Positions 38,013 through 62,425 of a stretch of DNA of 64,000 nt are shown here, one piece after another. The notes under the pieces were generated by a model. It ran no database searches. It was not told where the DNA came from and saw nothing but the letters and a program-made list of their open reading frames with translations. Position 1 is the first letter of the stretch. Every line of letters begins with the position of its first letter. The translations under genes were made by a program, and so were the position numbers. The stretch lies in the NCBI GenBank assembly GCA_000231825.2, contig JH720320.1, positions 747,554 through 811,553 on the forward strand, read 5' to 3'. The stretch comes from Tetrahymena elliotti 4EA (taxonomy: Eukaryota; Ciliophora; Oligohymenophorea; Hymenostomatida; Tetrahymenidae).

Positions 38013-38957
38013 TTTAGTTTGTAAATATATATTTTTAGTTAAATTAAATTTTTTTTAATTTTAAAATAAATGAATTATTCTCTGAATATTCATTTTTAAT
38101 AAAGCTAATGAGTAATTTTAGAAGAAAGCATTTCCTATGGACCAACGAAATTAATTAGTAATTATTTATTCATTAACAAAAATTAAGTTTTACAATATGA
38201 AACTGAAATTACTATTTTACAAATAAAATTCTACATGAATTTTTTAATTAAATTGATGTTAAAGTATTTAAACACTTTTAAGAAGTTTAAATCTAACAAA
38301 GAGAAAGAGAGTCCAGTAGATGTTTAAAATTTAAATTGAAAATTGAAAAAAGAAGTATTTTATTTAGATAAAAATTGTGAACAAAATTCCAGTAAAACAA
38401 TAACAAGCTGTGATAAAAAAAATTAAGTAATTATGGGTATTTTTATATACATTTAACTAAATAAGAAGAAAGAAGAAATAATGGATTAATAAATTTAATG
38501 AAATTAAAGTATCGTCAATAAAATAATGTAGTTGATTGATAGATAGATATATGTTTAACAATATCTTCATAATATAATGAAAAATGTTAAAAATTGCTTG
38601 ATTTTTTAATTAATATTACCTTATTAGTGAATCAGTTATTTATTATGTTAATTAGTCTGCTATTTATTTATTGTATAATCGACTAGTATATTTATCATTA
38701 TCATTATTATTATTTAGCAATTAAGTTAAAGTCAAACAATTGAACATAAATATTACATCTCAACTCCTTAATAATAATTATTAAAACTTAATAAAATTTC
38801 AGCTTTTTTTTAAATAAGTGAATAATTATACTAAGAAATCAATCAAGCAAGGCATAAAGAAAGGGTTCAATCAATCGCTTAACTAAAAAGAAATAAAAGT
38901 ATGAGCTCAAGCGGTTAACGCCCAAGCAATTTAATATCATAGCAAGGTTAATAGCAA
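38013..38957. other. Divergent promoter region upstream of the dynein-like giant
   Basis: AT-rich DNA between divergent genes. No gene is seen. A short GC-richer stretch just before the start codon (38880-38935) looks a little like a tRNA D-arm, but no full tRNA fold is possible. Confidence 0.5.
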
Positions 38958-41900
38958 ATGAATGAATAGAATAAAACAAAAACAACCTTTAGATCTACTA
39001 AAAAGGATGAAGCCCGTTTGCTTCCTCATGAGGTGTTTGATTCTATGGAAGAATTGTAAAATCTGAAAACAAAATATCCCTCTTTGAGATAAACATATAG
39101 AGTGGTAAAATAACATGATTAAATATTTTTTTGTTAATGCAGAAGAATTAGCTTTTTTTGAAAAAAATCATTTACAAAGACACTTCTTTTTCTAAATTTG
39201 ACATAGCTTAATTTCATATTTAAGCTTTAAAAGATAGCGCTAATTCAACTTTAAATTTTTAGTAGAATTTAATAAAAATGAATTTATAAATTTTTTAAAT
39301 ATAAAATTTAGATTAAACCTAGCACTACTATGAATAGAAGTATTTCATCTAACTTCTTTCCTTCTAGTAAGCAAAATCCTAACTAGCCAAGATCAAAATA
39401 TGATTTAAATGCTTACTTCAAAGTTAATACTGATAGATGGTATAGTGGGTTGGATGAAGCAAAGCCTCTAAACAAGCATAATGACTCTTTACAAGAAATT
39501 AATCATAGAACATCTCGCACATTGATATTCCGTTAACAAGATGTAAGGCTATTTGAAACAAATTACTTTTTATTTGAACAATCAAGATAGATTTCATTAT
39601 TTTTTAACTACTTATAATTGTCTAGCATAGTTATATTAATTTTAGCAAAAACAAATCAAGATAGCAAAAAAGCAAACAAAATAGAAAATAATTTTATGTT
39701 AACAATGATTCTTTGAGAAAAAAGATCTCTAAGTTAAACAATACTCCATTAAATAGAATTATAAATAAATTGCATCAGTAAATTTTGATCTTTAGCTTTA
39801 TATATATCTTAGAGTACTATCATTATTATATTTTAGTTAAGTTAAGAAAGCATATGATTTTAAATATTTAAGCAATCAATTAGAAAAAAGATGAAAATAA
39901 AAAATAATTTTAAGACTTATCTTAAATAAATGTGATAAAATGAATAAATATTTTTATTTTAATTTAGTGATTTTCTCGAAGATAAAATTAAAGCTGTTAT
40001 AAATTCGTTTTTAAATTATTAATAGGAACCAAAGTTTTTTAGATAAGAATCAGGATCAGGAGGCCACTCAAACCAATAAAGTATGCCTTAGACATTAAAT
40101 AATGTGTAGTCTTCTGATGATTTATTTAGACAGCTTCCAAGAAATTTATAATCAGCAATTAATCTTCCAAATTTATATTCTTAAGTTGAGGAAAATGAAA
40201 GAATGATAAATCCTTTAAGATCTGACCACAATTTGTTAAACCCTTATATCTCTAATAACCAACTCTAAAATAAATCAAGATAGTCATCTTTAACAAATAT
40301 AAATTTTAAAATAAAAAAGCTTCATAACACATATTACAATTCAAGTTAGCGTAGTTTAATAGAAAATACAGGAGAAACCAAAGAAACTAATCCATTCACC
40401 TATATAGATTTTTTTTAATAAGGAGATATGATTCATATCAAAGTATCAAATCTAAATAATTTTAAGGTATTTTATGAGTTAAATTTATTTATGAAAAATA
40501 AAATTTTGATAAATTTCTGATCAATCAATCAAATACCTTTTTAATTTAGGTTGAGCCTCTAGAGAAATTTGATGAAGGCAGACTTTATGATGAAGACCCA
40601 AGAGTATATTTAAATTCTGGTGTCTTTAGAGGATATAGCAAATGGCAGGAACCAGATGGCTCTTTTGTTTGGAAAGATTGTTTAGTCAAAGACTATAATC
40701 CAGTAACAGCTAAGTTTACTATTTAATGGGTAGCAAACAAAAAAATAAAAGAAGTTAGTCGTTTAAATTTGATGTATGATCATGAAAATTAAGAAATAGC
40801 TGATACAAGGTATATTATGTTTTATCAATATTCTTATCAAATCATAATAATTTTAAATGAGATGAGAAGGAGAACCAGATTAAAATTTAAAAGGAGCTTT
40901 TGAACAAAATAATTTTAATTTAATCATTTTAGCAATTACGAATATAAAAGATTTATTTATTTAAAGATATAAATTAGCTAAAGAGAAGCGTGAGTAAATG
41001 CTCTACTTTATTAGTCTGAAATAAAAGATCGGTGAAACGTCAAATGAATCAAAAGAAATTCTGTTTAGAAAGAAAAATTTGATTCGTATTTTGGATTTGA
41101 TTTTTAATACTGAATTTTTAAAAGAAAATGAGGAAAGTTGGAAAAGATAAGTCATTAATGATATTCTTTAAGCTTATAAATTTGATGTAATAAAGTTTGT
41201 TTATTAAGCAAATACTGTTTAGAGCTTATATGAGCTATTTAAAACGTATTTTAATTTTAGGTTATTTACTCTTCTTAATATTTTCTTTGAATTCATTTAA
41301 TTAGCTATTATCCAGATGAGCTTGTAAGGAGAAAGCTAAAAAGATACAATTTATAATTGAATTTAAAAGAAATTGAAGAATATACTAATGAAGCAACAGC
41401 AAATGAGTAAAAATAATAAGAACCTTAGAATGGCAAGAAAAAATATCAAAATTCATTCTTTATTCCTGATAGAGTAAAAGAAGAAGAACCAGAATAAAAT
41501 ATATTTGAATATTATTACAATATTAAAAATTGGGTTTATGAAACAGAAATCCCCTAATAAAATTAAGCTGTTGAACCTGATAAAATTTAATCTACATTCA
41601 CTACAGCAGTTGAAGGGCAAGTACCATAAAAACTCAATAACCAGTTATTTAGAAAAATAACTTTAAGCTCATTAGCTATAGCTAAGAACTCATTCTTAGA
41701 ATACATTATCAATAATCTAAGTAAGAGTTTAAGATTTAATTATGATCCTAAATTTTTATAACTACACACTACATTGCCTCAAGTAAAATATTTTTAACTT
41801 GGTATGATTTTATTGATTAAAACTTATTAAATTCTAGTTCATGAAAGCCATCAGTAGCTTAGAAGAAACAAAAATATTTTAGTATTTTGCTAGTTCTGGA

Positions 41901-44900
41901 TAAAACTATTAATCTGATGTTTTTCCTGAGTTTGACAGTAATTGTTTTATTTAAATTTAAATAATTTTAACAAATCAATTTATTAGGAATGAACATTGAA
42001 TTCAACAAATAAAAATTTAAAATTGAGAAGATTTTTGATAAGATTGAGGTAATTTTAATTAATGACAATTATTTAATGTTTGTATTAAAAAATTATTTTT
42101 AATGATATAAATTAGCTTTCAATCAATGAAATAATCTTTGATGTTACTAGAAATATGGGGTTTGAGAGTAAAGAAATTAAGAAGTTAAATTTACACCATA
42201 AATTAAAGGAGTGTATGCAAAAAATAACTAATTTCCTTGTTCAAAGTTATATGTCTAAAACTATTTAAAGCTCTATTTATTAATTATGTGAATCTTTCTA
42301 AAAGTATTATGCTGTTCTTCCTTATGAGGATCTAAACTCTTAGGACCTCCTTCTAATTGATCCAGAGATTAAGATTATTCGTCTTTTGAAGAGACTCTGC
42401 TACAGTTATGATAACCCTGTAAATTAACGAAATTTCAAATATAAATATTAAAATATTTCAATTAATAGGACATCTAAATTAACAAAAGAGGATCTTTCAT
42501 AAATCAAACTTAATTTTTAATGGTAAGTTTAATAAATATTAATTAACTTAAAAATTAAAGTATTTTATTAAAATAGAGCTTCTAAGAGTTTGAGAATGAT
42601 CAATAATAACAATCTTAATAAGAATTAGCATAAGAATAAGCAAATAAAGTATTTTAATTTACATAAAAACTAAATTTAACTTATTTTTTTAATAATATTT
42701 AGATTCCTACTAATATTTGCCTGCCTTCAATATATGAATAGAATTAGGTAAAATAAAACTATATTATTTGGAATAATTAAATATTTTTAATAAATATCAA
42801 TAGGTATTATCTAGTAAGGACATACTTTAAAGGTTTGGAAACATCTTTTAAAATACACCTGAAACTTAGACTAAGAAAAGACTCTCAACCAATAAAATCA
42901 TCTATGAAATGCCTGAAGATCCTATGACTCCTAATGAGAACTTGCTTAAAAAGAAAAAAAACGACCAAATGGAAGCAGCCAAAAGAGAAAGTGCAGCTTC
43001 TATCAAAAACCTTGAAATTCTTGATGAAGAAAATGAAGATCCACTAGACGATTTTTCATCATGGAGATGGATAAGAGATTCAAAAATAGTGTTTATGATC
43101 TATACAAAAATGTGTGAAAAATATATGAGTGATTAATTTTTAAATAATAGATATAAATAAATTGAAAAGAGCCCTATTCAACCTTTGTTTAATCTTCGTG
43201 TTGTTATCAACGATGACAAAAATCTACCAAAGAAAATAAAATCCCTTTATAAAACATTTAGATTCAATAAAATGGATTAATAAAAAATGTCTGATATCCT
43301 CTTCCGTAGTAGGGAATAATTATATTCATACAATGATCTAACATTTGAAGATATGTTTTATGAAATCGCTGCTCGTAATGATCTTGAATACTCCATAGAG
43401 AATATTGATAAAGAAGTATACATATTTAAATAAATTGTTAATGATTTATCATTTTATATTAAAAACTAAGATTGGACAAGCAACTATCACCAAAGGACGT
43501 CTAGGTTGGTTTAATTATAACTCCTTTTTGGTAACATTTGAACCTCCTCTTGAAACTTTTGAAGAGAAATTCAAAGATTAATTTTCGAATGCTCTCATAA
43601 ATATTAAGAATCTAAATAAAATATTTGGAGAATTTGGTAAAATATTTTCCAAATTTTCACTCAATATTGAATTTGTTTTATTATTTTTTAAAGCTTCAGA
43701 TAAGGTTTTCAGAAGTGATGATGCATTTTAGAATCAAGTTTAGCTTATTAATGAAAACATAGATTCATTTTTGTTGAATGGTTTGTATTCAGCATACTCC
43801 TTACTACATTTATTAAATAGATTTGAGTTCTACTACTTACATTCTGAAAACTATGAAAAATTTATTAAGGGAATGTATGATGATGATCAATTGACAGAAG
43901 TATTTAGAGAGCAAGAAAAAATAAAAAAAGACTTAAACTTCTTTGAGTAGAGATTGCCAGATGAAATTAATTTAGGATTTATTGTTATTTATTTGAAGGA
44001 ATTTAAGAGCAGCACATTAATTGAAATCAATAAAAAATTAGATTTAATCAAGGTGCTCAGCAAGGATAAATTTAAAAATGTATTGGATAAAAATATTCAA
44101 AGTCATGAAGAAATATTAAAAAATATGGAAAAGGAACCAACTTCAATTTAAGAATACATAGAAATTCTTTTATATGTTCAAGGAAATGATTTGTAGAATC
44201 AAATAAATACCATGGATATCTATTAAGAAATGGCTACTTATTTATATGATAAATTCTATGACTAATTAATTATTATTGACTCAGATATGCTTATACTCTA
44301 TTTTAATGCTAAAAGCATGCTTATGGATGTTAAAAATCACAGAGAAGCAAAAATGTTCTCATTAAAAAAGATTAAATAGAAATTCGAAGAATTGCATCAT
44401 ACTGATAAGACAAAAGTAAAAGACAACATTGAATCTTTAATGAAAAAAATAGAATAGCTTAAGTAAGAAACAAGCTTTGATAGAGCTTTTGAAGTAGCTG
44501 GTTTATCACAAGAAATCTTGACAGAGTTAAATTATGTTGAATATAAAGTAAAAGTTCTTTAATATGAAGAAATTCATCTTTCTGTAAATGCTGACTAATA
44601 TCTCAACATCTAAGAAGATGCTTTTAATTTCCGTACCTATGATTAATTATGGAAATACACATCAGAATGGAAAATGGTAATATTTTATTCAGTTATTATT
44701 TTTATGTGCTTACAAATAATTAATAGAAAAAAGAAGAATGGCTCAAAAAACCTCTGTTGAGTCACAATGTCGGAGGATTCACTAATGCAGATATCAAAGA
44801 AATATCTCAAACTTTAGATCAAGGTATTAAAACCCTCAAAGAAGTAGAACCATATTTCAAACAATACAATCAAAAACTTATGCCTTTGATTGAAACATTA

Positions 44901-47900
44901 ACAAGTGACATAGGATAGTTTGAAAGAGTCTATGAGTTACTAGTTCAAGTAAAGCATGAAAGTTTTAAAAGTGAGCACTGGGCTGTAATTAATTATAAAT
45001 TGACAAATAAAATATATTTAATTTATTCTTAATTTTTAGCAAATTTTTGAAGTCATGTATTAAGACAACCAAAAGAAGGTAGATGAAATGCTTGCATGCT
45101 TGAAAACTCCCTAATTTAACTTAAGCTTCTTAATTGCAAATAATGCTCTTGAGCATTTAGGTTTTGTCTCAAATATAGCAGGAGTAAAAAATTATTATTT
45201 TGTATTTAAAAGACTATTATTTAACTATCTATTTTCATAATAGGAAGCATAAGAAGAATTTAAAAGTTAAGAAACTATCGATAACTTGAAAAATGAATTC
45301 TAAAATATTAACTTTGATACAATTGATTTCCATAATATTCCTCTTATTTTAGGTTTAAAAGATAGAGTTTCTGACTTGCGTCATTAATACTTTACAGTGT
45401 AAAGATTTCAATAAATTTACATTTTCAATAAAATTATCAATATCGAAAGCAAAAATTTAAATTTAATATTTTATCAAATAAAATTATTTTAATATTAAAG
45501 TGGAGAAATGCTTCGTAACAAGATATATTAGAGAAATGACTTCACTGAGAAGCTAAGCTAATTGGAATATGTAGTCAAAAATACTATGAAAGTTTTAAAA
45601 CGTATTGCAAAGATTTAAGACAGATTAGTTGCCTATGCCCCTCTTTACAGATTTAAAAAAAATGAACCTTATCTCAAACAATCAACTATTATATATAATT
45701 AAGTAGTAGAAGATTTCAAAAAAACTGCTAAAGATATTGAAAAAAAGGGAATGAAATATTTTACTGCCTTATTTGTTAAAGAAGAAGAAGATAGCAAAAC
45801 ATAATAAGAAATCCATGAAAAATTCTCCAGCATTTACACAAGATCAAATTATGTTCGTTAGCTTGTCTAAATCATGGCAAGATAGATTCGTTTTGAAAAT
45901 CCCAGAATGGCATTCTTCTCTGATGAAAAAATAATCCAACTTTGTTCTTGCCAATTTTATCCAAAGGTAAATTTTATTAAATCTAATAATTATATAATTC
46001 ATATCTCATTATGAATGAATAGGAATTCTTCTAATATATCTCTGTTGTGTATCCTGGTATCAAAGAATTCGTTATTACAAAGACAGAAAACGAAACAAGA
46101 CCTGGTTAATACGATTTGTCTGTAAAATAAATAATAAATGAGTATGGTGAGAAATTGGATTTACTCTACACTGTTACTTACTAGCTTGGAAGAACTGATG
46201 AACCACCAGTTTTTACATTTATGAATGAGATAGAAATGTAGATGAAAGAATACTTTAAGAATTCTCTGCAGAAGAACATAAAAGGAATAAGTAAAACTTT
46301 TAATTTTTTTAATTTCGACTTGAATTAGAATGATAATAATTATTAAATAAAGGTAACTGCTATTATAATTATTAATAAATATGGACATCATACATATCTA
46401 GTGGGGCAGTGCCATTCTAAATTTTATATCTAATTAATGATATTTGCTTTTATCATGATGTAACTGCGCTTTTAAGCATCAATGACAGTTTAGAAGATCT
46501 TAATGAATACTCTTCTCCATAAGAAGTAAAGGCTAGAACTAAAGATTCTGGAATAAATAAGTTAAGAAACATATTACAAACTCAACTTTCTAACTTTTCG
46601 GTGTATTTCTAATAAGTGATTAAGCACAATAATAACCCTAGATTTGTTTTACCTTTCACTCAATTTATTCTTTAAATTCAGAATCATATTAATATTTTAG
46701 GTTATCTACTAAATAATTTGGTAAACTCTTTTATCGTTTAAAAGTGAAATCATATTAAAATGTAAAATAAAAAAAGGCTTTTAGATTAGATTCATTTGAG
46801 TATCTCTCCCTCCCTAAATTCTCTTTAGAATTTAATAGAAAAGAAGTTGATAGACAATTATTTAATAAGGTTTAAATTCAAAATTTAAATGCTTTGACTG
46901 CAGCTTCATTGGCAGCTCAATAAAAAAAAGAGTAAGGTGAATAAATTCCTGAAGGAGAATAAACTAAGAAATATACTGAAGGAGATGATGGCACAACAAA
47001 GAATCAACAAAAACCAGCTTAAGTAATTCTTCCTAAAAACTGTGCTGAAATTATTTAAATGACATATACTGCCACAAAGTAAGCCTCTGCTATGTCATAT
47101 GGATAAAATGATTTACCAAATATAAATGCAAAATCTCTCTTCATGAATTTAGTATAAGAGTATCCCTTTGATGTGGTCCTCCTCAGTATGAATTATAAGC
47201 GTTTATATGGTTATGAAGTTAATCCCATCTTCCAAAATTACGTTTTCACTGAATCATCAAACAGAATATTTGCTAAAATATTAGGAGCATTCTCAGCAAG
47301 TTTAGGTAATTTTTTTATAAAAATTTTAGTTTTTAAATCTTAATAAATTTATTTAAAGGTGCTTGTTTGAGAAGTCCTCCATAGTCAGGTAAAAGAGAAA
47401 ATGCTAAAGCTTTGAGTTTCTTATTAGCTAAACCCTTCTTTGAATGGACTTTTGATGAGAGAATGGACTCATTCACAGTATAAAATATTTTAACTGGTTT
47501 TGCCTCTGGAAATTATTGGCTATATGTCACTAACCTAGAAAAATGTAATATGAGCGTTATCAGTACAATGGCATAAGTTATGTTTGCTGTTAAGAAAGCT
47601 CTTGTATAAGGATATACTTAGTTCCCCTTTGGTGACTTAACTCTCCCTTGCAATAATCAATTTGGTTTGATGTGCTCATATTCTATCACTTAAGATGGTA
47701 ACAAAAACTCTTTCGAAATCCTCCCAAAAAGTCTTTTAGAAAACTTTAGAATCATAAACTTCATATAACCCGATATCGAACCCATATTCAGAGTAATTCA
47801 TTTTTGTTTACAGAAAAAAAAGCTTATTTTTTACTTAAATAAACATTGATTTAAATACATTCTCTTTTATTAGCAATATTTCTTGATGCTTGGAGTCAGA

Positions 47901-50900
47901 GATTATTTGGTTGAAGAAAAATTGAAATAATTTTTATTGTTTTTCTCATTTTTATCCAGCTCCTTTGACAAGTAGTACTTTTTGTAAAAAAATATGCTGA
48001 CAGAATAAGACTTAGGAGATATTAAATACAGCAAATTTGAAGGAATGCATAATGTATTTTCAATGAAGAGCTTGATTAAATTCTTGCATATATCCTTAAT
48101 GGCTTAAATTAATAGCAAGTATGAGTCAGACCCTATTGAAATATTAAAGAATTAATTAGATCTGCAATTACAAGCAACCCTTTCTTAAAGTGCTTACTAA
48201 TTTATTAAAATCACATTCACTAGATTCTTCACTGAAAGCACTCATAAAAAGAAGTTTATAAAAAAAGCAGCTGTTATCAAAAGAAGCAGTGATCCTAATA
48301 TTTAGTTAGTAGAGGAGTTACCCTCACATGTGAAAATGCCTGATTTTGAGCTTTTAAATCCTCTTAGTTATTCCACAATAGAAAAATATTTGCCACATAT
48401 CCATCAATTTTTGGAAACAAATTACATTTAACCAACTGAAAATCTTTTTAATCTTATTTCTACATTAATACCTATCACTATGAACAAAATGCCTGTTGTT
48501 TTCTATGGAGCACCAGGAAAGAAGAAAACTACAATGATTAAACTTTTAGCTTTTATTTAAGCAAAACAACAAAGTATAAACTTCAATATCAATTTTATCA
48601 AATTAGACGCTGTCACCTCAGAATCACTTTTGGGTTATAAAAATAAAAGTAAATTTATTGCTTTCTTTTAATTTCTGAAAACATAATCTTATATTTTATT
48701 ATTCATTCAGAGGGTATTTTTAGAAGAGGGCTGGTAGAATTAATTATTGAGGGTATTAAATACTTCTAACCTGATGATAAAGAAATTAAAGATGTTTTAT
48801 ATGATTTTGAAAATCAATTTTGTACTATTCCTGCTGCTCCTTATACACAAAATAAAGAAAATAAATTAAAATCTGATCCTAAAATTATACTTAAAAAGAA
48901 AGTCCAAAGTAACAAACTGACTGAAAATGATTGGATAGTTGTAGAATCTTCTTCTGCTTTAAATAAAAACCCCCACCAAACATATTTAGATTATGCCCTT
49001 GATGGCTTTTACAAGGTAAAATTATTAAGAAAAAATATTTACAAGTATTAAAAATTAAAAAATAGAAACACTTTAACTTGATCAATAGTGATATTGTTAA
49101 GATCCCAAGAGATATTTACAGCATATTTGAATTGGAGTCTTTAACAAATCTTTCTCCATCAAATATTCACAACTACTTTTTGTGTTATTTTAGTTAAGAT
49201 ATCTTTGATTTGAAATAAGAATTCATTCATTGGTTTGAGGTAAAATGTAGCTAAAATAGCTATTTCTCTTAATTTGGTACTATCCTAAAGATTTTATTTG
49301 CTTTCTTCTTCCTTGAGTATATGAAATAAATTGACTACTTTCACAAAGACGAAGTAATTTTTTGAAAATTTTTAGAACAATAATTAATTTATCATGATTT
49401 AATTAATAGACATTCCTTTACAGATTATCAAAGAAAGCATATCTAAGAAACTTCCTGCATTATCTTGAAATCTTCTTTAATGAAATAAGAAAATTTGATA
49501 TTGCTTGTGGTGAATATGAAGTTTCCAATTCAAATATTCCTGTTATCAATTTAAGGAGATAGAGAAAAAACAAAAGACAAACATAACTTATTGAATTTGA
49601 ATAACTTTCAAATAATTTGGCAGCTAATTTGAATACAGATTAAAGTGAAAGTAAAAAAATGTTTTTTAAATTAAAATTCTTAAAATTTTTTTGTTTAATT
49701 AATTATATAGTTGGAGGAGTCGATCCAGGAATTAGATTGATTTGTACTATGGAAAGTATATTTATATTTGCTATGACATATAGTGTTGCTATTAACCTTA
49801 GAAATGAGAAGAAAATATATTACCAAGAATTTATTGAGAAGTAAATAAATGAATACATTTCATATAGAATAAGAAATACAACTTGCACATTTGATTAAGA
49901 TAAATATCCCTTTGGATTAAATTTGAGAGATTTAGTAAGCACTGAAAGAGTTAACTTATTTGACATTTGCTATGACATTTCAAATCAAACATGGATCAAA
50001 TGGAAGAATGTTACACTTGAAGAATATGGAGGTGTCATTAGTGGTGACTTTACTCGAGATACTTTAGACTATAGAGAAATAGTTAGATTAAATTATGATT
50101 CTATTGAATATCTAAAAGGAAAGATTCATTAAGAAAAGAATGTAATTTTCATTCCTGAAAGTGGAGTATTTGTTGAGACAAACGCTACTAAAATAACTAA
50201 ATTTTTAATGCAATTTGCTGTTTCATACAGTAAGCCTACAATAGTTATTTCATAAAATCAAAATGGTATTACAAGCTGTATATAAAATAAATTAAAAACT
50301 CTTATTGAGCATCATTCCTACTCTACTGCTTACATTTCTTTAGACAGGGGAACAACAGTCAAATAAGTATTCTATATAATAGATAATTTCTTTTTTATAT
50401 GTATAATAAATATTAAAAAATAGTTCCAAAAAAGAGTTGAAAGAAATCTAATTTGGAAGAATAATAATCACTTAACATCTGTTTATGACACAAACACTTT
50501 AGTAGTTATTGATGATTTAAATCTTGCTATGGAGTAAATAAAATAATTTACAATCTTTTTAGTTAATTTATTTAAAATATAATTTAAGCGGAGTTTCACC
50601 TATTGGAGCATTAAGATATTTCTATGAGAATGAAGGATGGTTCTCTAATAGTAAGATGAGATTCATTTAGTTTTCTCTAACAAGGATGCTTGCTATTTAT
50701 GGATATAGTCCATATGCATCTTCAAACATTTTTGATCCAGCCTATACTGTCCTATCAAATAGCATTTTAGAAAAATCGATGATTCTAAGAATGCCTGAAA
50801 ATGACAATAGAGATTTAGCTAGTATCTTCTCAGCTTACAATTAGGTTGATGTTCTATTAAATATTTAAGAAAAGAAAACATTTTTAAACACAATGAAATC

Positions 50901-53900
50901 CTTGTGTGCTATTATGGCTATCACTAATATTGAATACTAAGAAGAATTCTCTTTAATTGCGAATATTGTTAGTGGCAATTTTTCAATTCGTAAAGGTATT
51001 GAAGTCATTAAAAATATGAATTATTTTGAATATTTCAGCAGGAACAGGACATAAATAATGCCAGAACTTTTCTTTAGAGCTATTGTTTATTTGTAAGAAA
51101 TATCTAAATGTTTTTCATTTTAATTTAATAATTTTTTTAATTTTAATAAGAATGAATTAGTACTATGCTTCAGAGTTTATTTACAATAAAATTGAGGATA
51201 AAACAGTTAAATAGCGTGTAAATGGTTCAATTAGTGAGACAGAATTAAGAGAGTAAAGCTAAAGAAATGAAGACTATTAATCTATTGAAGGCAATATCAT
51301 GTTAAAAAGAGCTTCATTCTCTAAAAAAGAAAGCACTGAAGGAGACTACTAAAAGAGAAACAGCTAAACAGGAATGAGTGAAGGAGCAGGTATTTAATAA
51401 ATGAGAGATAATTATGAAGAGGAAGAATATAGTGATGATGTAATTGAGGATGATAAAATTAAAACAATGAGTGCAAAAAAAAGAAGAAGTATTTAGCTGA
51501 AAAAAGAATAAACTAAAAACTTGCTACCATTTTCTCATGAACCTTTGATACAGAATTTAGATGAATTCAATATTTTGAATAAATAACCTATTCCTAACAC
51601 ATAAAAAGTCCTTTATTTCTTAATGTTCGCAGACCAATAAGAAAACTCACTCGAGTAGCTTATCCTTAAGATAGGAGCAAACACAGGTGCGCTAGATGAA
51701 ACAGGCTTACTAAATAAAAATAACTATGCTCCAATTTACACTAAATAAAAAGAAGAGTATTTAACAAAAGTAGATGAGCTTCAATCGCCTTTAAACCAAC
51801 TAAGGCGTAATGATAAGTAAGCTTAGTTAAATGATATGCTAGATAACATCCCATCGCCCTAGCGTAAGCCTGCTAATTTTAAGAGAACTCCCTTGCGCTA
51901 ATAATCTCTTCTTTTAGAATTACGTAAAATTGAACAGTAGGATAATATAAATCCTATAAAAGAAGAGGATGATGAATCTTATATACAAACAGCAAGAAAA
52001 TAAGAATAAGAAGGCACACCATAAAACTTAGATTCAGCAGCTTTAGATAGTAAAACATCTCCTAAATAAATATTTGACTTCTAAGAAAGAGGTCAAGTAG
52101 TATTGACACGTAAATAGAAAAAAAGTTTTACCACTGCTTTTAAAAGCAGCCCATCTAATTAACTCTAAGGAACTGCTGGAATAAAAGGGTATGTGAATTC
52201 TCCTTAAAGATTTGGAGAAGAATCAAGTAAAGTCTCTTCTGATAAATTATCATAAGCTCAAAGAGAAGCAGATGGGGCAGTTCCAGAAGAAACCCTCTAA
52301 ATGATGCGTTTGGAGCAAAAAGTAGCTATCTAGATGGCAGCTCCAAGCAGAGATATAACGAATGCCTATAAATCCAAATTTTAAAAAGACACTTCAAATA
52401 AACACAAACGTCTTACAGTTATTTTAAATAAAGAACAAGAAGAAGAATTATTTATAAGGAAAATAGAATCAAAGATAGATAATCAAATGAATATTTAATT
52501 TGAAGAATTAGCAACTCTTCCAGATTAGCTGGTAAGAGAATTTAGTAGAATGTTAGAGAGTGAATTGCTAGAATCAAACTAAGGATTAACTAAATAATCT
52601 AATGCTGTTTTGTTATTCAGACATGAGCTTTAATTCTTTAATTGGTCACTGCTAGATGATGTTAATGATGATAATAAAAGTGTTGATAGTAGAAGTAAAG
52701 ATATGTTTAACTACCAATTCTGTTTAGTTACTAAAAAGAGAGAAAAAAGAGTTTTTGATTTCATACTTCAAAAATTCAGAGATTTTTCTATTAAAAATCC
52801 TTTCCTATTAAATAATTTCTTAGTGAGAGAATGTAACTTCGAATCTCTATACTTCCATACACTAAAACTTCTTCATCTTCTTTAGATATCAAGTAGTCAC
52901 ATCTTCTTAAATTCATAATTTAGCAAAGAAAGCACCAGAGAAATAATTAAATTCATATCTAAAATCCTCCACCTTAAACTTTATGAAACAGATATCACCA
53001 TTAATACTATTGAATAATTCAAACAGACTCTCTTTGAAGCTTTAAAAGGTATTTCTTATTTTAAGTTTATTCAATTGTTATTTTTTCTTAAAATTACATT
53101 TTTGAAACATTAAAACCTTTCCCATCTTATTACTTTAAAAATATCTGTTTATCTCAAAATTTTAAATTTATCAAAATAGATCTTTTTGGACATGAATAGT
53201 ACTCAATATTCTATTTGAGAATATCTAAAGATGGTGTAATTGGTAGCTCTATGGCAGATTATAATTAGAAGGATATGAAAGAAAGCTTTAAATTAACTAA
53301 GGTACTAGAAATAATTCATACATTGGTATCAGGAAGTGAAATTTTGAGTTTATTCACAAATGAATAACTTGAAACATTAATTTCGCATTGGAAATTGTAA
53401 AAAAGATTCTTCGGTATGAATAATCACATTCTATATCATATTATTTCTAAGAGAATAAGAAGTCATTTAAAAATCATTATTTCTTAAGAGCCACTACCTA
53501 AAGATAAAAACATTTTTTACTCTCTTTATTCTAATCTATTCAAAGAGTTTAATAAATATTTGATGATTCCTATCCATGCCTCTGAAGACTCAGAAAAGAA
53601 AAACTGGCTGCAAGATCTTATTTAAATATCTGTTTCTTAGAGTAAACTAGACTTGATTAAAAAAATATATTCCATAGAATTAGAAATCTCCCGTATCTAT
53701 GAAAGTTAATATTTCAGCAATATTAGAAGATCTTTTGAAGAGAATCTCTCTCTTTTCTATTTGACTTAAAATATTTTTAAAACTCAAATTCGTCTAAAAG
53801 AAAAGAAACTGCGTGAAAATGGAAAATATCCTTAAATGATTCAACTTATGGAAGAGAAGTTAGTTATTTTTGAAAATTAAATAGAAATAAATGATCATAA

Positions 53901-56900
53901 TCTTGAAACAACTAAACAAAAAAAGTAAGATTTAGAAGAAATTCTTCAAAAAAATATTGAAATTTCCAAACAACTCCATACTGAAATTTAAGGTAATATT
54001 ATTATAAATTACATCAATAAATATCTTTGTTTTTTCATAGACTTGCTTAATGAAGAGGCCAAAATACAGTAGCTTATTAACAGAGTTTAGTTTTATGAAA
54101 AGCATGTCTAAGAATTTGAAGCAAGAAGTAAAGAATTAGTTGAAAAATTGAAAGTCAAAGATGCTTAAACTTACAACGATGATGTAAAAAAAAAATATTT
54201 CTTTTTTATTTAAAAATAAAATTTTTCATCAAAAAATTTTTAATTTAAATGTTTGTATTTTAAAAGATTAAACCTCAAAAATTCTTAGAAGTTGTAAGCA
54301 TGAATGTTTATTGTATTGCTTTCTTCATTACTATGAATGATTTCCTTGAAGAAAAATTCAGAGTTAACTTTAACTAGTTGGAAGAGGATTTAAAGAACAC
54401 CAAAAATAAAACTCACTTTTTAGATATGCCTAACTTAGATTTCTATAAAGAACGTTTGGTTGAAGTAGTTTCTGATTTCTCATGGATTAAATATGCTTTG
54501 GATAACATGGAAGAACAAAAAGTTACTGATAAGCACTTATAGTTGCTTTAAATGATCAACAAAGAATATGGAGGTGGACAAGAAACTAATTTAATCTCTC
54601 TTTAGAGTGGTTTTAATGTTTCTTAACTCTAAACAATTAAGTTTATTGATATAGGAATAGATTTTGTTCGTATCAGTATTGAAAAACGTAGATTCCCTGA
54701 ATCTTCTTAAGTCATTTAGGAAAGATTAAACATTGTTTAGTAGAAACGTATTGCTAAAGAATAAGAAAAAGTTGAACCTGATAATTTGTGTGCTAAACTT
54801 CCAGGGGAAATAGAATAATTAAGAGTTGAGTAAAAGAATTATATGAATGCTTTATCTAAGAAAAGATAGGGTTTGACTCATTTCTCTCTATGCTTAACTT
54901 AATCCAAAGACCTCTTTGAAGAATTTATCCGCCTTGAAACTTAAGATTTGAAAGATAAAAAATTATTATCCTAAGTATCATAGTTAGTTTCTATCCTTAT
55001 TAATACAGGAATGAAGTATCCTTAATTCGTGACAAAGAAGATACTCACTCTTTTCAAAGAAAAATTAAATCTCTCTTTTAGATATTTCTAAAATTAATAC
55101 AAAATTTCTACAGTTCTCAAGAACTTGCAATATTATTATGAAGTTCTCAAACTTGAAGTTCCTCTCAATTAAGATATGGTTGATTTTATAGCTATTATTG
55201 ATTTCCTCATAGATTATGATATGTTCTATTATCCTTTCATTAGAGATCCTTCAGGTATATACTCGGAGTATGTTAAGGCCAAGTTCACATCTAAATTCAG
55301 ACATGAATAATATACAGTTGACCCTCAATCAGAAGTTAACATTGAAGAAGTAATAAATATTCTACATTTCAAAAAAGAAATTGAAACAAATTTAAATCAA
55401 TAAAGATCACCAAAAATTATTTTTTTGATCACTAAGACATTTTAAAAACTTATTTCAGACATTAATGTAATATATTTTTATACTTTATAATTAATAGGCA
55501 TTAGTTAGAGGAGAAACTCTTATAGTTGAAGATTTCGATTAGGATTTACTTGAAATGATTATGCCAATTATTGAATGGAAAAATGAAAGAATGTAAAAGC
55601 TCCTATTTTATTATATGAAAGACCCTGCAGATACTGATCTTGTAAGTTTAAAAATAAATCAAGAAAGACATCCTCTATTAATTAATGGAAAAGAAATAGA
55701 AGTTCACCCAGATTTTAGATTAATTATGATTTATTAAGGAGACAGAATGACCTTTTCACATACTTTCTTCACAAAAGTGTTTGTTATGATTATGGAAATA
55801 GAAGATGAAGAAAGATGGAAACAAACAATTACTGATCATTTGATTAATGGATTCTACATTAAGGAAAAGAAAAATATATTAGAAATTGTAATCATTCATA
55901 ATTTAATTTATCTTTAATATTAAATAATAAATTTTATTTTTTAACTTAAATAGAAAATAAATGAGCTAATAGATAGGGAACAATCACTTAAGAATAGTTG
56001 CTAGAATGTCTATGATAAGTTACTTAATGTAGAAGCTTCTGATGATTTAGATTTCATGAATTTTGTTATTGAAGAAATAAAAAGTTAAAAGTCAATAATT
56101 TCACCACAGTTAGAAACATAAAGTAGCTTAGTAGAAGATGATCTTTAGATAGAATAAAATGAAGCTATTGCAGAAGATGAAGAATTTGAAAACTAAGACT
56201 TCTTCAAAGCCATGCAAATGCCTGAACCTGAAAAACCTTAAGAAGAAAATAAAATTATGGAACAATAACAAACATAGTCTTCAAGACCAGCACTTAAACG
56301 TCCCCCTATGGTAAAGAGACCATAAAAGCCTATTCCAGTTGCTCAGTAACTTTTTTAAAAAAAAAAATAAAGTTAAATAATATTTTTATGCGAATAGAAA
56401 AAAGAAGCAAATAGCTGCAGCTAAAAAATAACAATAGTTAGAAATAGAAGAGAAAAATAGGGAGATTATGAGACATAAAAATAACTTATTGAAGGCAAAA
56501 TAAGAAAGCCATTTGTTTACTCCTTCTCATTCTTCTAGATTGATGTTCGATAATAGAAGAAAAATGATGAATATAAAATAATAAGCTCTCAAGAGTGGTT
56601 CAGATTAGGAATATGTTAAAAAGTTCTACCATAAACTTGATGAGTTATTTGAGTTCTCATCTCTCTTTTTAGGAATTTTGGAATTCATTTATGCAGTTAA
56701 AGTCAATTGGATGAACGTCTAAGAAGCTATGGGATCTATTTACAGTTTCTCAGATAAAACATTTTTACTGCTCATCAGCTCTTCAATTGAAAACTGTAAA
56801 CGCCACAATAACCTTCCAAAATCTTAAACAGTAAAATAACTATTTTTATATAAGTTAATGATTTGTTTATTTCTTTTAGGAAAATCAACTCAGCCAAAAG

Positions 56901-59900
56901 TTCTTAAAAGCTTTTTGTGAAACCATTTATTCTACTTTAGTTGGTGGATTAAGAGAAGATCATCAAAATTTATTCTGCTTATACTTTGCTCTTATGTTTT
57001 TAAGAGGTATGAACCAATTTACTGAATTTGAATGGAAGATGTTTATCAACTGGAATATTGAAGCTAGCGAGTCACAAAATGTATTCTATGATAATTTGTA
57101 TGATAGCAAGTGGTCTACTATCAAAAATCACTTGATTTCCTTTTATAATTTATCTAATAATTTACTTGCTCCACTTCTCACTTTGAAATCAAGTAAATTT
57201 TTTGTTTTATTATTTTTTAACATTTAAATTCTAAAAAATAAATAAAGATGATGTTACTAAAGGTCTTTTGACATAAAGTAGCTAATTGAATCTATCTCAA
57301 GTATAAAGCGATCAGAGCATGCTCAGCAATATACATCCTAATAAAACTGATTAGAATGAATAACTAGATAGTAGTATAGACTAGAGCTTCAGTGCTCACT
57401 TTAGTTTACAGTAAGGTAAAAAAATTGATAAGAGAAGTTTGTTTGCATTAAAATTCTAGAAAGCAGTAAGTAAACAACTCCAACAAGAGTAACATGAAAA
57501 TTAACATGAAAGTTAAAAAGATAAGTTTGAGATCTTCCTTTAAAAGTAGTAATCATCACAAAGACAAAAGGCCTTATCTAATGAAAAGCCTATTTTAACT
57601 AAAGACAAATTGTCTTCTCTAAAAGAGTAAGAATTAATTGAATTAAATTTCAAATAAACTGAATCTTAATATTTTAAACATAATTTATTTTAAAATAGAT
57701 AACTTCCCATCACAAAAGAAGAAGAAGATGAAATTTCTATCTCTTCAAAGAATTTATCTGATAATGAAATTAATGAAGAAGATGAGCTAAAAGAAGAAAG
57801 TTCCTAAGGCTCTAGATCTAGATCAAGCAGTTAAAAAGAAGAGAATTTAGAATAAAAAAGTGATAATATTTTAGATGATGATTAACAAGATTTCAACAAG
57901 TATGAAAAAGAAGACGAATCAGCCTTTTCTAACTTCAAAAGAATGGAATCAGACAATCCTTTTTCACTTGATTAAAATAAATAAGATGATGACTTAAATC
58001 TATCAGAGTAAGCTATTTCAGCTGCTTCTATTAATAGTGAAGAAGATGACCTTAAGAACAGTTAAGGTCTCAAACCACAAAAAACACTACAAGAAATCCA
58101 AGCTTTAACCAACAACTTTAATGTATAAGACGCTTTAGAAAATGTTTCAACAAGAAATTAAATAAAGATTGGCAAAAAAGCATTTGAAGGATTCCTTCAT
58201 CTTTTTAGTTTATTCCCACAAAGAACTCAAATGAAGCACTTAGTTAACAGTTTACTATCTAAGTTGAGCCATTGGATAGATTTCCAAAACACTTCACTAA
58301 AGATGAAGAATTATGATTATAACAAAAATATAATAATTCCTACTTTAGTCTAAAATATTGAAAGAAAAGTAACTCCTCTCTAACTTCTCTTATTTGTCAA
58401 GCATTTCAGGTAAATATCTTAATAAATTTATAACATCATTTAAAATATAATTTATTTTAATTCATTCTTACAGACCTGATGAACTCTAAAGATTTGCTAA
58501 ATATTTCTTCAGAAAAGCATTCAAAGGCTATATTGAAGAAATCCCATAAAATAACTTCGATCAGCATTGCCAAACTGGTATTTATTTATTTATTATTTTG
58601 TTTTTAAATATTAATCAAACAATACTTTGTGAAATCTTGTAAATTAGAGAATAAACTCATAAAATTCATTCAATTTTTGAAAGATTTTTTATTGTTTGAA
58701 AAATTTTATTTAAATTTAACAAATGTTAAAATTTTTAAATAAAGATTGGATGAGAAGACCAACAGCATTATTCCATCACTCTGTGTAAAAGAGTATGTTT
58801 GAAGCTTTGGAGCTTAAGATGATGAGCTTATAAATAGAAGGTGGGTTAGTGAGACTGCCTATGGGTATTCTACCAATAAAGAATGTACTTGAAAAGATAA
58901 CAGAAGCTGGTGGTGCAGGATAATGGCTTGCTATAGAAAATATAGAATTATTAGGTAGAAAAGATTTGCTTTAGGTTTTAAAGAAGATAGATCAAGAATT
59001 GCTTGAATCTACTTCTAGAAGAACTTTCAAGGTTTGGCTCATTTTTAACTTAAATGATGAAGGTGAAAATTATGAAAAATCAAATTTCTCTAAAAAAGTT
59101 TTACCTTTGCTTTAAAGCTACTTGGAGAGGTGCTGGAAGATATATATTAATAGTCCTCATAAGATTGCTCGTACTTTAAATATTATGTACAATATAGAAA
59201 TATAAGAGCATAGAGCTAGGTAACAACTATAACGTGATAATAAAAAGGTACAATAGGTTGTAGATCTAAATAAACTAGCTGCATCTTTGCTTGATAATGG
59301 TCCTGAAAAACATACTTCCATCAGCAATTCAGTTATTCAGTGTTATATTCATCGTTATATATAACATAAATAGAAAACTTTGAGAGAAGACAGAGCAATT
59401 GCATTAAATCTTCATTGTTTCCTTGACAGAGAAAAGCTCAAAAAAGATAATTTTGTATTTGAAGAACGTATTGTTGACTATGAACATAAATACAAGTTTG
59501 CCCTCTCATTTATGTTTGCTACACTCAGACAGAGAGTAAAGTATGAAAGATTATAGTTCTGCTACTATGTTTAAGAACCATTCATGTATGTCAGTGACTT
59601 CGATATACAAGCTATGCAAGACGAAATGTTCCTCTTTTTATAAGATTATACAATGGATATATAAGTCTTCATTACAAAATTCTTAAGTCATTGGTTTAGA
59701 GACACATATAAGTATGGTTACTCTACATATTCATCTTAAGTAATCAGAGATTTATCAAGGATATTTGTTTTCACTGCTTAAGAAAATACAACTAAAATTA
59801 CTGTTCATAATAACATTCCTACTTTAAGAGGAATTGTAGAAAATGATAATACATTTGATTATGAAATCTATGATTTCCACTAAGGTGTTTACCCAACAGT

Positions 59901-62425
59901 AGAAGAAGCTCTATACAAGTCAATCAAGGCTTTACCTAATGAAGATCCAATCAAGATACTCTCATTGTAACTTACTTTCTTTGACATTCGATAAAGAAAA
60001 CTTCTATAATAATATTAATTTTTGATTTGATTTAAACAAATATTTTATTTATAAAAATAGGAATTAAAACTCAGAGTTTTTGTATAATTATAATCAATCA
60101 TAAGGATTGATGAACAGAGTTATGGAAGTCGAAAAGAAATGGGAAGAAAATAAATTGGCAAAACTAATTACTATGCTTGATAAAATTAAATTCACACAAG
60201 AAAACATTTAGTCTGATTATATGAACTAGTAAGTTAGGTCATTTTTCTATGTTCATCTACATCGCTACTTACATTAACATGAAGCATAGCTTGAAATAAC
60301 TTAACTTATACACTATTTACTAGAAGTACTTGATTTTAATTTTGATCTCAAGACTATTAGCTTCTTTAAAGTTAAATCTCAAAGGGGAGATTCTTTCTAA
60401 GCTGTTTTAGAAAACTGGGTTGAATCAGTTTAAGCCTCTATACCTTCCTAGCACAATTCTTTACTAATTAACCCAGATGGCTCTCTTTTAGATTAGGTTA
60501 TAAGTAAAGATCTCATTAAGCTAAACAAATATGCTAGTTATCAAACAGGAGGTTAGGGCAGCGCTCAAAAAAATTCTCGCTAAAACACAACATTAATCCC
60601 TCAAGGAAGGGTTCCAACTTAGTCTTCTCAGAGTGCTATAAAATTGAATACATAATAATAAATAGAGCCATTTAATTTAGCTAGATAAGGTACCTTCAAA
60701 GTTAACAAAACTAACTTATCTACTTTTGGCGAGCAATCACCAAAAAATAAAAACTAAACCCTCAACGACGATATAATATCGAGCCCACTTGAGACAAACT
60801 AGATAAACCCTCATTCAAATGTTCATCATCGTTAATTATTCAATAGAAATACACGTAAGCATGAGAGTAAATTCTTGAAGGCTTTACTCCATGAAAAAGA
60901 GGAGAGTAAACTTAGAATTACCAGAAATAGAAATGACTCATCTTTCTAATAAAGTGAGAATAGAATGCAAACCGATTTAAGCAATACTTTAGGTCACCTC
61001 TTGGGTTAACAAACTAACTAATCTTAGAATAGCTTCCATAATGCAGATGAAGAAGATTCTGATTCTCATGGAATGATTCCACTTTCACAATAACAAATTG
61101 TTACTAATTTAAGCTAAATCCACTAAAGAAGTTAGAATGCCTCTCACTTTTTGCAAGATGAAGGTACAGGAGATGATGATAATGATTTTAATCTTAACCA
61201 ACAAAACGTTTATAAAATACTTCTTTTAAATGAAATCATTAGCGCTCACAGACTCATTGAAACAATACGCTAAGACCTTTAATCAGTTTTAGATTATGTT
61301 ACCAATAGAACTGAATTTACTACCAATTTATATATTTAAGATCTACTTGACTGCTTATTAAATAATAGAGTGCCAACAAATTGGTGGAAATAAGGTTTCT
61401 TGCTCAATAAAAAAACTCTCTATGATTTCATATAATCATTCCTATGCAAGCATGAGCATTTAAATATAATTATAAATAATAGATAAGGCCAGCTATTCCC
61501 TATTATTCCTCTCTAAAAGCTATTCAATCCTATTTAATTATTCACATCTCTTTAACTCTAATTCTGTTTGCTTAAAAACGTAAATTAATATTGTTAATTT
61601 TAACAATTTTATTTTATTTTCAAAGCAAAAAAATTAAAATTTCTAAAATAATTTTTAATTAAAAAGTTTAAACTTCATGAAGTTAAATTCTAATTAAGAA
61701 AGCTCAGAAAGATGGATTCCAGATAACCTTCTGAAGGAGGTATTTATGTAAGCGGGCTTTATCTGAAAGGAGGTAGAATCAATATGGAGAACTTTATGTT
61801 AGAAGATGAAAGATGCAGAGAATTCGAAAGCTAATTACCTCCTTTCCATGTTCTTTTAACTCTCAAATCTAAATTGAGATAAGAAGTTTACTTTAAAGAG
61901 GTAAAATTATTTAAATATTATTTTTTATAAATTAAATGATGAATTATTAATTAGGAATATAACTATGAGCCTAACATTCCTTTCGAATTATTTGGCGGTG
62001 AAAATAATCCATAGGGCACATTTGACAAAGAAAATGAATATTTCTTCTTCCAGGCTCATCCTGTATAAACTTATCAGCATGAAACTAAATCTCACATATA
62101 AGGATTAAAAGTAAAACCAGGAAAAGAAAAAGATCTTAAAGATTAGAAAAAGATGTCAATCCTTACATCAGAAGAGCAATAGAAATTACTCTAAGAATAA
62201 ATTTAAAAAGTAGTAAACAAAGACAAATAAAGATTCATAGATTTTGAAAAAGCCAGTCAATTCCCTGCTATGAATTATATAGTGCGTATCCCTATTGTAG
62301 ATTCTAATACTACTTCACTTTTCACTTAATTCCCTGCTAAAATGTATCTATACATAACTTCTAAAAAACCTTAAGAATATTGGATCAGAAAAGGAACAGA
62401 AATATATATCGAAAAACAATTTTGA
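38958..62425 (+). CDS. Giant dynein heavy chain-like protein with degenerate nucleotide-binding sites
   Basis: One gene with roughly 45-50 short introns; by rough estimate the protein is 6,500-6,800 residues, against ~4,000-4,700 for usual heavy chains. Exons fitted at the 5' end include 38958-39104, 39312-39542, 39665-39777, 39968-40466, 40550-40809, 40967-41260, 41305-41782 and 41838-41937, all phase-consistent. The order is: Gln/Asn-rich extension, axonemal-dynein tail block (WANKKIKEVSRLNLMYD), linker (SEHWAQIFEVMYQ), AAA1-AAA4, coiled-coil stalk, AAA5-AAA6, C-terminal domain (GGIYVSGLYLKGGRIN) and TGA at 62423. The frame stays open through all blocks, so it is not a pseudogene. P-loop and Walker B residues are altered in several AAA modules (separate entries), so it is unlikely to work as a normal ATP-driven motor. 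A structural or regulatory axonemal role is inference. DNHD1-type non-canonical dyneins are one possible relative; orthology is not shown. Confidence 0.85.
40550..41304 (+). other. Dynein-like: axonemal-type tail block
   Basis: Encodes VEPLEKFDEGRLYDEDPRVY, then WKDCLVKDYNP, the conserved VSRLNLMYDHENQ and DTRYKLAKEKREQ. In axonemal heavy chains a like block (strand, R-I/L-x-x-MF, D-P, then R-x-x-A-x-x-x-R) sits at this place in the tail. This favours an axonemal rather than cytoplasmic origin. Confidence 0.6.
43469..46722 (+). other. Dynein-like: linker region
   Basis: Linker landmarks in order: SEWKMKKEEWLKKPLLSHNV, HESFKSEHWAQIFEV (family: ERHW-x-x-I), NALEHLGFVSNIAG, then NPRMAFFSDEKIIQL (family: PRFFFLSNDDLLEIL) and KNIKGISNCYYNYQQIWTSY with ISSGAVPFQ just after. 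The linker is the mechanical lever of dynein; its preservation suggests the fold is kept even though the motor sites are not. Confidence 0.7.
46777..47873 (+). other. Dynein-like: AAA1 with destroyed Walker A and Walker B
   Basis: YGYEVNPIFQNYVFTESSNR matches the AAA1 entry motif. The P-loop, normally GPAGTGKTE, reads SPPQSGKRE (47373-47399), so the Mg-coordinating Thr is Arg. Walker B, normally CFDEFNR, reads LYVTNLEK (47520-47543), losing the Asp and catalytic Glu. The sensor-1 block TMNPGYAGR reads SYSITQDGN. The later FR of the arginine-finger segment is present. AAA1 is the main motor ATPase in true dyneins. Confidence 0.85.
48490..49238 (+). other. Dynein-like: AAA2 with altered P-loop
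   Basis: The P-loop reads YGAPGKKKTT (Gly 48507 to Thr 48533) where GPSGSGKT is usual: the Gly before the invariant Lys is Lys. The following LYG-D motif survives as SLLGYKN. A Glu/Lys-rich insert interrupts the module near 48840. The Walker-B-like strand, usually W-x-V-F-D-G, is DWIVVESSS. The next conserved block is SIFELESLTNLSPSN. Confidence 0.75.
49923..51060 (+). other. Dynein-like: AAA3, P-loop lost, Walker B kept
   Basis: The strand, P-loop and helix read NVIFIPESGVFVETNATKI (PESGVFVE at 50154-50177) in place of LFVGPTGTGKS, so no P-loop remains. Walker B is intact as VVIDDLN (50502-50522), followed by GVSPIGALRYFYENEGWF, the usual P-P-I-E-L-L-R block. Confidence 0.75.
51160..52640 (+). 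other. Dynein-like: ~430-residue low-complexity insertion between AAA3 and AAA4
   Basis: Open frame rich in Glu, Lys, Gln and Ser (for example RRSIQLKKEQTKNLL, KQEQEGTPQNLDSAALD, KQKKSFTTAFKSSPS), with many Ser/Thr-Pro pairs. No counterpart exists in ordinary heavy chains. It may be a disordered, phosphorylated linker. Confidence 0.65.
52700..53480 (+). other. Dynein-like: AAA4 without a P-loop
   Basis: HIFLNSQFSKESTREIIKFI (NSQFSKEST at 52910-52936) stands where GVGGSGRQSL is expected, followed by LYETDITINTIEQFKQTLFE, the usual Q-I-E-x-T block. A later SGSEILSLFTNEQLETLISH matches the segment after Walker B (usually SGEVPNLF). Confidence 0.7.
53560..54900 (+). other. Dynein-like: coiled-coil stalk and tip
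   Basis: CC1 is a long Lys/Glu/Gln heptad region (LKEKKLRENGKYPQMIQLME to KVKDAQTYNDDV, with an intron near 53992-54040). A ~130-residue tip region lies at ~54270-54700. CC2 follows (QERLNIVQQKRIAKEQEKVE to LRVEQKNYMNALSKKRQ). A conserved-looking descending segment (SQVSQLVSILINTGMKYPQF) comes after. The stalk is intact in outline; whether its tip still binds microtubules cannot be told. Confidence 0.7.
55130..55890 (+). other. Dynein-like: AAA5
   Basis: MFYYPFIRDPSGIYSEYVKA matches the RWPLMIDPQGQ block of AAA5. VRGETLIVEDFDQDLLEMIM fits G-x-x-LIE-x-x-x-x-x-LDP. VHPDFRLIMIYQGDRMTFSH fits the F-R-F-Y-x-T-T-K-L strand. A Glu/Gln/Pro-rich insert (to ~56600) follows. Confidence 0.75.
57248..58120 (+). 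other. Dynein-like: ~290-residue acidic low-complexity insertion
   Basis: Open frame dominated by Ser, Glu, Asp and Lys (for example SISSKNLSDNEINEEDELK, then DDDLNLSEQAISAASINSEE). It lies between the AAA5-AAA6 link (GGLREDHQNLFCLYFALM) and AAA6. Confidence 0.65.
58160..59250 (+). other. Dynein-like: AAA6
   Basis: LLLFVKHFRPDELQRFAKYF aligns with the LLLxRCFRPDR block of AAA6. EAGGAGQWLAIENIELLGRK replaces the usual G-x-WVLLQNCHLA. RRTFKVWLIFNLNDE aligns with F-R-L-W-L-T-S-x-P. Confidence 0.75.
59250..62425 (+). other. Dynein-like: C-terminal domain with a ~270-residue insertion
   Basis: YKFALSFMFATLRQRVKYER and DIQAMQDEMFLFLQDY match the K-x-x-F-x-L-x-x-F-H-A block and the following L-R-x-S-L-x-x-L. 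The region continues to HQGVYPTVEEALYKSIKALP (G-x-Y-x-x-P...I-x-x-LP). A low-complexity insert covers ~60400-61200. The final domain (GGIYVSGLYLKGGRINMENF ... YWIRKGTEIYIEKQF) is the standard C-terminal cap. Confidence 0.8.

Follow-up and report, generated by a model that had tools for sequence, protein, structure and literature searches.

Whether a dynein heavy chain can lose its catalysis and still be kept by selection as an intact giant protein is the question raised by a gene of Tetrahymena elliotti 4EA, which lies in the 64,000-nucleotide stretch of DNA analysed here (the window). Its extent was modelled with a purpose-written gene finder that relies on codon bias and GT-AG introns (mostly 50-60 bases), applying the ciliate code in which TAA and TAG encode Gln and TGA is the stop. 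The raw model of this gene, hereafter W, spans 38256-62425 on the + strand and ends at 62425. A database search identified a counterpart, P0003 of T. thermophila SB210, a 'dynein heavy chain family protein' of 6626 aa that aligns with W end to end at 92.1% identity (6089/6613 aligned residues). As the first residue of P0003 corresponds to the Met codon at 38901, this position is the most likely start of W; the first 89 aa of the model (38256-38900), which have no counterpart in P0003, are probably non-coding. The start of the original prediction, 38958, lies in the same gene, 57 bases inside the more likely one. The resulting gene is as follows.

38901..62425, + strand: whole W gene, a single gene with 44 introns and 6631 codons encoding 6631 aa (own spliced model; end-to-end match with T. 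thermophila P0003)

After this Met, W and P0003 differ in length by indels of 1-3 residues alone. P0003 covers the whole of W, in agreement with the original prediction of one open giant gene, and no split into several separate genes was seen, given this end-to-end match and the introns that W shares with three of five paralogues (see below). With 6631 aa, W is about 40-67% longer than the full-length chains among the matches listed (3960-4755 aa); the excess first put at 40-50% is thus real and its range wider. Two other gene models of the window are recorded here: a 584 aa model at 13254-15247 on the - strand, the start of which presumably resembles a CobW/COG0523-type GTPase, and a merged model at 2560-26296 on the + strand, the first part of which resembles what we take to be a RING-IBR-RING ubiquitin ligase and is followed by Asn/Gln-rich repeats.

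The domain architecture of W was examined with Pfam, run on model residues 348-6720 in three pieces with one cut lying in the stalk, and with a block-by-block hhalign comparison of W against profiles from five canonical chains (values in % probability). The recognised blocks follow the order of dynein heavy chains, namely the linker (DHC_N2), six AAA blocks and the C-terminal domain:

40550..41003, + strand: N-terminal domain, model aa 382-480, with one internal intron (family conservation, profile matches)
44626..46274, + strand: linker, DHC_N2, Pfam bounds (PF08393, E 4e-32; hhalign 99.6)
47101..48194, + strand: AAA1, bounds set by us (AAA_6, PF12774, E 5.5e-22; hhalign 99.8)
48375..49532, + strand: AAA2, bounds set by us (hhalign 98.2)
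49728..51217, + strand: AAA3, bounds set by us (AAA_7, PF12775, E 6.7e-15; hhalign 99.0)
51218..52612, + strand: AAA3-AAA4 insert of ~465 aa, low-complexity by eye (86% identity to P0003; no hhalign match)
52613..53643, + strand: AAA4 (hhalign 84.6, the weakest matched block)
53644..54854, + strand: position of the stalk and microtubule-binding domain (MTBD), sequence unrecognisable (hhalign 3.6, versus 100 between canonical halves)
54855..56058, + strand: AAA5, bounds set by us (hhalign 96.8)
58117..59307, + strand: AAA6, bounds set by us (hhalign 97.9)
60992..61897, + strand: dynein C-terminal domain, Pfam bounds (Dynein_C, PF18199, E 3.3e-27; hhalign 98.6)

Pfam also detected an AAA lid (E 2.5e-7), while AAA_5, AAA_8, AAA_9, MT and DHC_N1 gave no match at E<=1 in this three-piece run with its cut in the stalk. 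The joint presence of DHC_N2 and Dynein_C rules out a Midasin/Rea1 identity. Off-diagonal hhalign values were mostly below 5, and the exceptions all fell between AAA domains (AAA1 versus AAA2 88, AAA3 55, AAA5 38 and AAA4 13; AAA2 versus AAA3 14; AAA5 versus AAA6 22), so the AAA4 assignment in W owes as much to position as to score. W 5761-6100, W 4991-5180 and the AAA3-AAA4 insert matched no canonical block in the block-wise comparison.

The statement that every architectural block is kept therefore holds for DHC_N2, AAA1-AAA6 and the C-terminal domain, in order, but not for the stalk/MTBD. At an hhalign probability of 3.6, a canonical stalk is not recognised in W, and a diverged stalk may still lie at this position. 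As a control, the canonical set was split into halves, which matched each other at 100 in each of the nine blocks, including the stalk. The MT domain is likewise absent from the precomputed domain list of the full-length P0003, whereas nearly all canonical matches have one. Within the family of W described below, W, C4, C59 and C94 compared with C29 and C115 scored 99.5-100 in seven blocks, with AAA4 at 20 and the stalk at 0.15. Canonical chains, too, show their lowest conservation in the stalk (0.29 mean identity); part of the divergence of the family stalk is thus general, but the loss of recognisability is not.

The ATP sites of W were then read from the sequence, with the following motifs on the + strand:

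47373-47399, + strand: AAA1 Walker A relic SPPQSGKRE, GK retained (canonical GPAGTGKTE)
47520-47546, + strand: AAA1 Walker B relic LYVTNLEKC (canonical CFDEFNR)
47721-47750, + strand: AAA1 LPxxLxxxFR, retained
48507-48533, + strand: AAA2 altered Walker A GAPGKKKTT
within 50502-50528, + strand: AAA3 IDDLN, retained
50250-50276, + strand: AAA3 Walker A relic SQNQNGITS, Lys lost
52904-52936, + strand: AAA4 Walker A relic FLNSQFSKEST
53203-53226, + strand: AAA4 possible Walker B relic SIFYLRIS, read by eye (hhalign pairs that Asp otherwise)

None of AAA1-AAA4 fits the full Walker A consensus, which confirms the predicted alteration of the ATP-handling residues, to an unequal degree: AAA1 retains its GK, and in AAA2 the K-T pair is retained and the second Gly of GxxxxGKT is the sole loss. 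P0003 carries the same degenerate motifs, with a single change of S to T within the AAA4 relic. The same gene finder returned GPAGTGKT and the D-E pair of AAA1 intact in all ten canonical genes checked (10 of 25 loci), and a 329-aa AAA1 stretch of a canonical T. elliotti dynein is identical at all but one residue to the outer-arm beta heavy chain of 7k5b, a structure we take to be from T. thermophila. Without the Walker B motif of AAA1, no dynein power stroke is expected. Since the AAA1 Walker A and Walker B motifs for ATP hydrolysis are not intact in W, we class it as a non-motor relative and not as a dynein motor.

A search of the T. elliotti genome (90 Mb, 134 contigs) showed that W is not alone. 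Weak AAA_6, AAA_7 and DHC_N2 matches elsewhere in the genome led to six further loci, five of which are colinear with W (C4, C59, C94, C115 and C29:137-164 kb) and match it from the N-terminal domain to the end at 22-43% identity per matched stretch. The sixth locus, on C20, had become a candidate through its DHC_N2 match (G000:C20:343873-344292, E 6e-12), beside which its contig has no listed match to AAA_6, AAA_7 or Dynein_C; at E<=1e-3 the locus does not resemble the family, and it was rejected. W shares 17, 17 and 19 of 46 introns, in the same phase, with C4, C59 and C94, respectively, and five and two of 46 with C115 and C29; shifted positions, used as a control, gave a mean of 0.5-0.6 and a maximum of 4. 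Because the gene finder fuses neighbours on long stretches, the outer ends of the paralogue models are unsure, and the sole model with end-to-end confirmation is that of C4, to which P0004 of T. utriculariae (7332 aa) aligns at 83% and 77% identity over its two halves. C4 is also matched by P0073 of T. malaccensis at 81% identity. In a further database search, just P0003, P0004 and P0073 ranked above the first canonical chain, itself at E 6e-6; this search requires shared words and a length above ~4030 aa, and distant ciliates and shorter T. thermophila models could escape it. Under the same constraints, it returned no T. thermophila counterpart of C4. By our count, T. elliotti has 25 loci with canonical AAA_6 clusters, and the six pseudo-dyneins are additional to these; for T. 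thermophila, Table 6 of PMC3341644 gives 25 heavy chains.

The alteration of AAA1 extends across the whole family. All six members have lost the Walker B acids of AAA1 and all six retain its Lys, while the AAA1 Walker A varies, from broken in W and C115 to close to the consensus in C59 (GPQATGKSS). AAA3 keeps its GKT in C29 and C115, and its Lys is lost in W, C4, C59 and C94, suggesting that decay is more advanced in the latter clade. Among the individual loci, G000:C59:545088-571354 has an AAA1 Walker A that still fits the consensus despite the lost Walker B, and G000:C115 (- strand) and G000:C29:137631-164024 are the most divergent paralogues. C115 and C29 are possibly the earliest branches of the family.

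The pattern of conservation indicates what has been kept. Between W and P0003, identity is 92.7-97.5% in the AAA blocks, 97.8% in DHC_N2 and 97.5% in the N-terminal domain, versus 91.4% at the stalk position, 77-89% in the inserts and 74.5% in one acidic stretch; as the AAA blocks, DHC_N2 and the N-terminal domain are better kept than the inserts, conservation of W tracks the fold. AAA1 is the best-kept block of canonical chains (0.59 mean identity versus 0.29-0.38 for the others, four chains), whereas in the family it does not stand out (0.29 versus 0.19-0.30 in the other blocks), which suggests that the constraint imposed by hydrolysis is gone and that imposed by the fold remains. Furthermore, the catalytic residues of AAA1 were kept in 27 of 96 cases and the other canonical-invariant AAA1 residues in 121 of 342 (Fisher p 0.22; column permutation p 0.26). 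This absence of preferential loss of catalytic residues points to a general release of AAA1 rather than a targeted loss.

The origin of the family was addressed with a tree of AAA1-AAA3 (692 columns, 17 rows, comprising six family members and eleven canonical chains); P0002 was left out, as its sequence showed no canonical AAA1 motif. The six family rows were split from the eleven canonical rows by a branch with 100/100 support, so in this 17-row tree the family lies outside the canonical rows and not within a canonical group. Six placements of the family among canonical dyneins gave AU p values of 0.171, 0.173, 0.183, 0.0689, 0.205 and 0.375, none of which is rejected at 0.05, and with the long branch of the family the tree does not single out a nearest canonical class. 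The N-terminal domain is more informative. No other part of the family is conserved as well as this domain (in W 401-500, at least five of the six members agree at 26 of 100 positions), and the family profile of the domain matches 8glv_JG (E 1e-12), 9y6s_6k, annotated 'IDAa heavy chain' (4e-8), and 9e5c_6a (8e-8), the next match being at 0.06. Profile matches place the same domain in two canonical genes of the genome (E 5e-10 for C65 and 6e-4 for C38):

G000:C65:205557-205796: N-terminal domain in a canonical gene
G000:C38:250332-250502: N-terminal domain in a canonical gene

C65 and C38 pair in the tree (90/94); a grouping of the two with the family is neither favoured nor rejected (AU p 0.171). 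Against Pfam, the domain found no good match (the lowest E value among the six members was 0.006, reached by one of them), and folded alone it gave a low-confidence model (pLDDT 49) of strands only. In Chlamydomonas and humans, radial spoke 1 has IDA-a at its base, and this arm carries p28/DNALI1 together with actin (PMC10266980). The N-terminal domain shared with IDA-a type chains suggests a probable origin of the family among the single-headed inner-arm dyneins.

Overall, we consider it likely that W is a selected, non-motor giant pseudo-dynein with linker, ring and C-terminal domain, one that would serve as a static docked arm, tether or regulator. The original prediction had pointed to such a protein, and its core is upheld by the intact frame, the 92% identity kept in T. 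thermophila, the six-member clade and the loss of the Walker B acids in all six members. The family would have arisen within or beside the axonemal inner-arm dyneins and would have lost catalysis early, and with it the ATP-driven power stroke; selection since then may have acted on shape and binding. Like single-headed inner arms, the protein would dock by way of its tail and N-terminal domain; once docked, it might be a static arm, a spacer or a tether, or it might compete with active arms and so determine their positions. With the hydrolysis constraint gone and the fold constraint kept, we read W as a static docked scaffold or tether that possibly occupies or spaces docking sites. More tentatively, and with rather less than even confidence, the six giant catalytically dead dyneins could be private to Tetrahymena, each a different static 'dummy arm' or tether docked by its inner-arm-type N-terminal domain; a share of the dynein-like proteins of Tetrahymena would then be scaffolds rather than motors.

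Among the alternatives, the best surviving one is a ring that binds nucleotide without hydrolysing it and serves as a switch in the regulation of true dyneins. The AAA1 Lys present in all six members, the AAA2 of W one residue short of consensus, the Walker A of C59 and the AAA3 GKT of C29 and C115 make nucleotide binding possible, and in W itself the GK at AAA1, the K-T at AAA2, IDDLN at AAA3 and LPxxLxxxFR are all kept; on the other hand, no site of W fits the full Walker A consensus, and single-headed inner arms, the nearest kin by the N-terminal domain, are not known to pair with other heavy chains. On balance, such a switchable ring seems unlikely, though it would be compatible with the residues retained. 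Less probable is that W represents the ciliate form of DNHD1, an animal orphan dynein-like gene with a link to defects of the sperm flagellum. The two have in common their length, their dynein-like character and a position outside the numbered classes, and DNHD1 is termed an orphan (PMC8754002), but its name does not appear among the 70 matches, which counts weakly against the identity as only word-sharing candidates were scored. We regard it as slightly more improbable still that W remains a motor in which unusual residues at AAA1 or at another site hydrolyse ATP: the conserved AAA1 Lys, the near-complete AAA2 motif, the retained IDDLN and the intact AAA3 GKT of two paralogues would allow it, but the D-E pair of the AAA1 Walker B is missing from every member, Walker A is broken in both AAA1 and AAA3 of W, and the stalk/MTBD is unrecognisable. 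Finally, a decaying pseudogene whose frame is open by chance, as its fast evolution and degenerate motifs might suggest and as is discussed for the orphan DNHD1 (PMC8754002), is hardly credible in view of the full-length T. thermophila protein with its small in-frame indels and block-wise conservation, the six open paralogues and the presence of C4 in two more species.

The preferred reading of W as a selected, non-motor pseudo-dynein would carry some weight beyond this gene. Pseudo-enzymes are common among kinases; for dyneins, an entire clade of dead but intact full-length chains would be out of the ordinary. As the six genes fall outside the standard Tetrahymena count of 25, they may have been overlooked in work on ciliary dyneins. 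Among the titles and abstract openings listed by searches of open-licence PubMed Central, none concerned these genes. The portions available of two T. thermophila proteomic papers (PMC12399478, PMC9776847) use Dyh numbers up to 25, and neither Dyh26 nor Dyh27 was found in the portion of one of them, which bears neither way on ciliary presence. Since T. thermophila can be tagged and knock-outs are possible, the idea that a dynein ring may persist for structural reasons alone is directly testable.

Compared with known systems, W is most like the IDA-a type inner-arm chains (8glv_JG, 9y6s_6k), with which it shares the ~75-residue N-terminal domain, linker, ring and C-terminal domain, and from which it differs in the lost AAA1 Walker motifs, the altered other ATP sites, the unrecognisable stalk/MTBD and ~2000 extra residues, much of them low-complexity by eye. 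The best matches outside the family are DNAH1, DNAH3 and dynein d, with detectable similarity in AAA1; these, however, are canonical motors with 19-27% identity to W over part of the length. DYH1-DYH25 of Tetrahymena belong to the same protein superfamily as the six pseudo-dyneins, which lie beyond those 25. DNHD1 of animals, described as an orphan dynein-like 'ghost gene' and a possible pseudogene in the making (PMC8754002), resembles W by description, as an orphan dynein-like chain outside the motor classes. Unlike DNHD1, the family is represented by six genes in a single genome and has members that persist in other species, W in T. thermophila and C4 in T. utriculariae and T. malaccensis.
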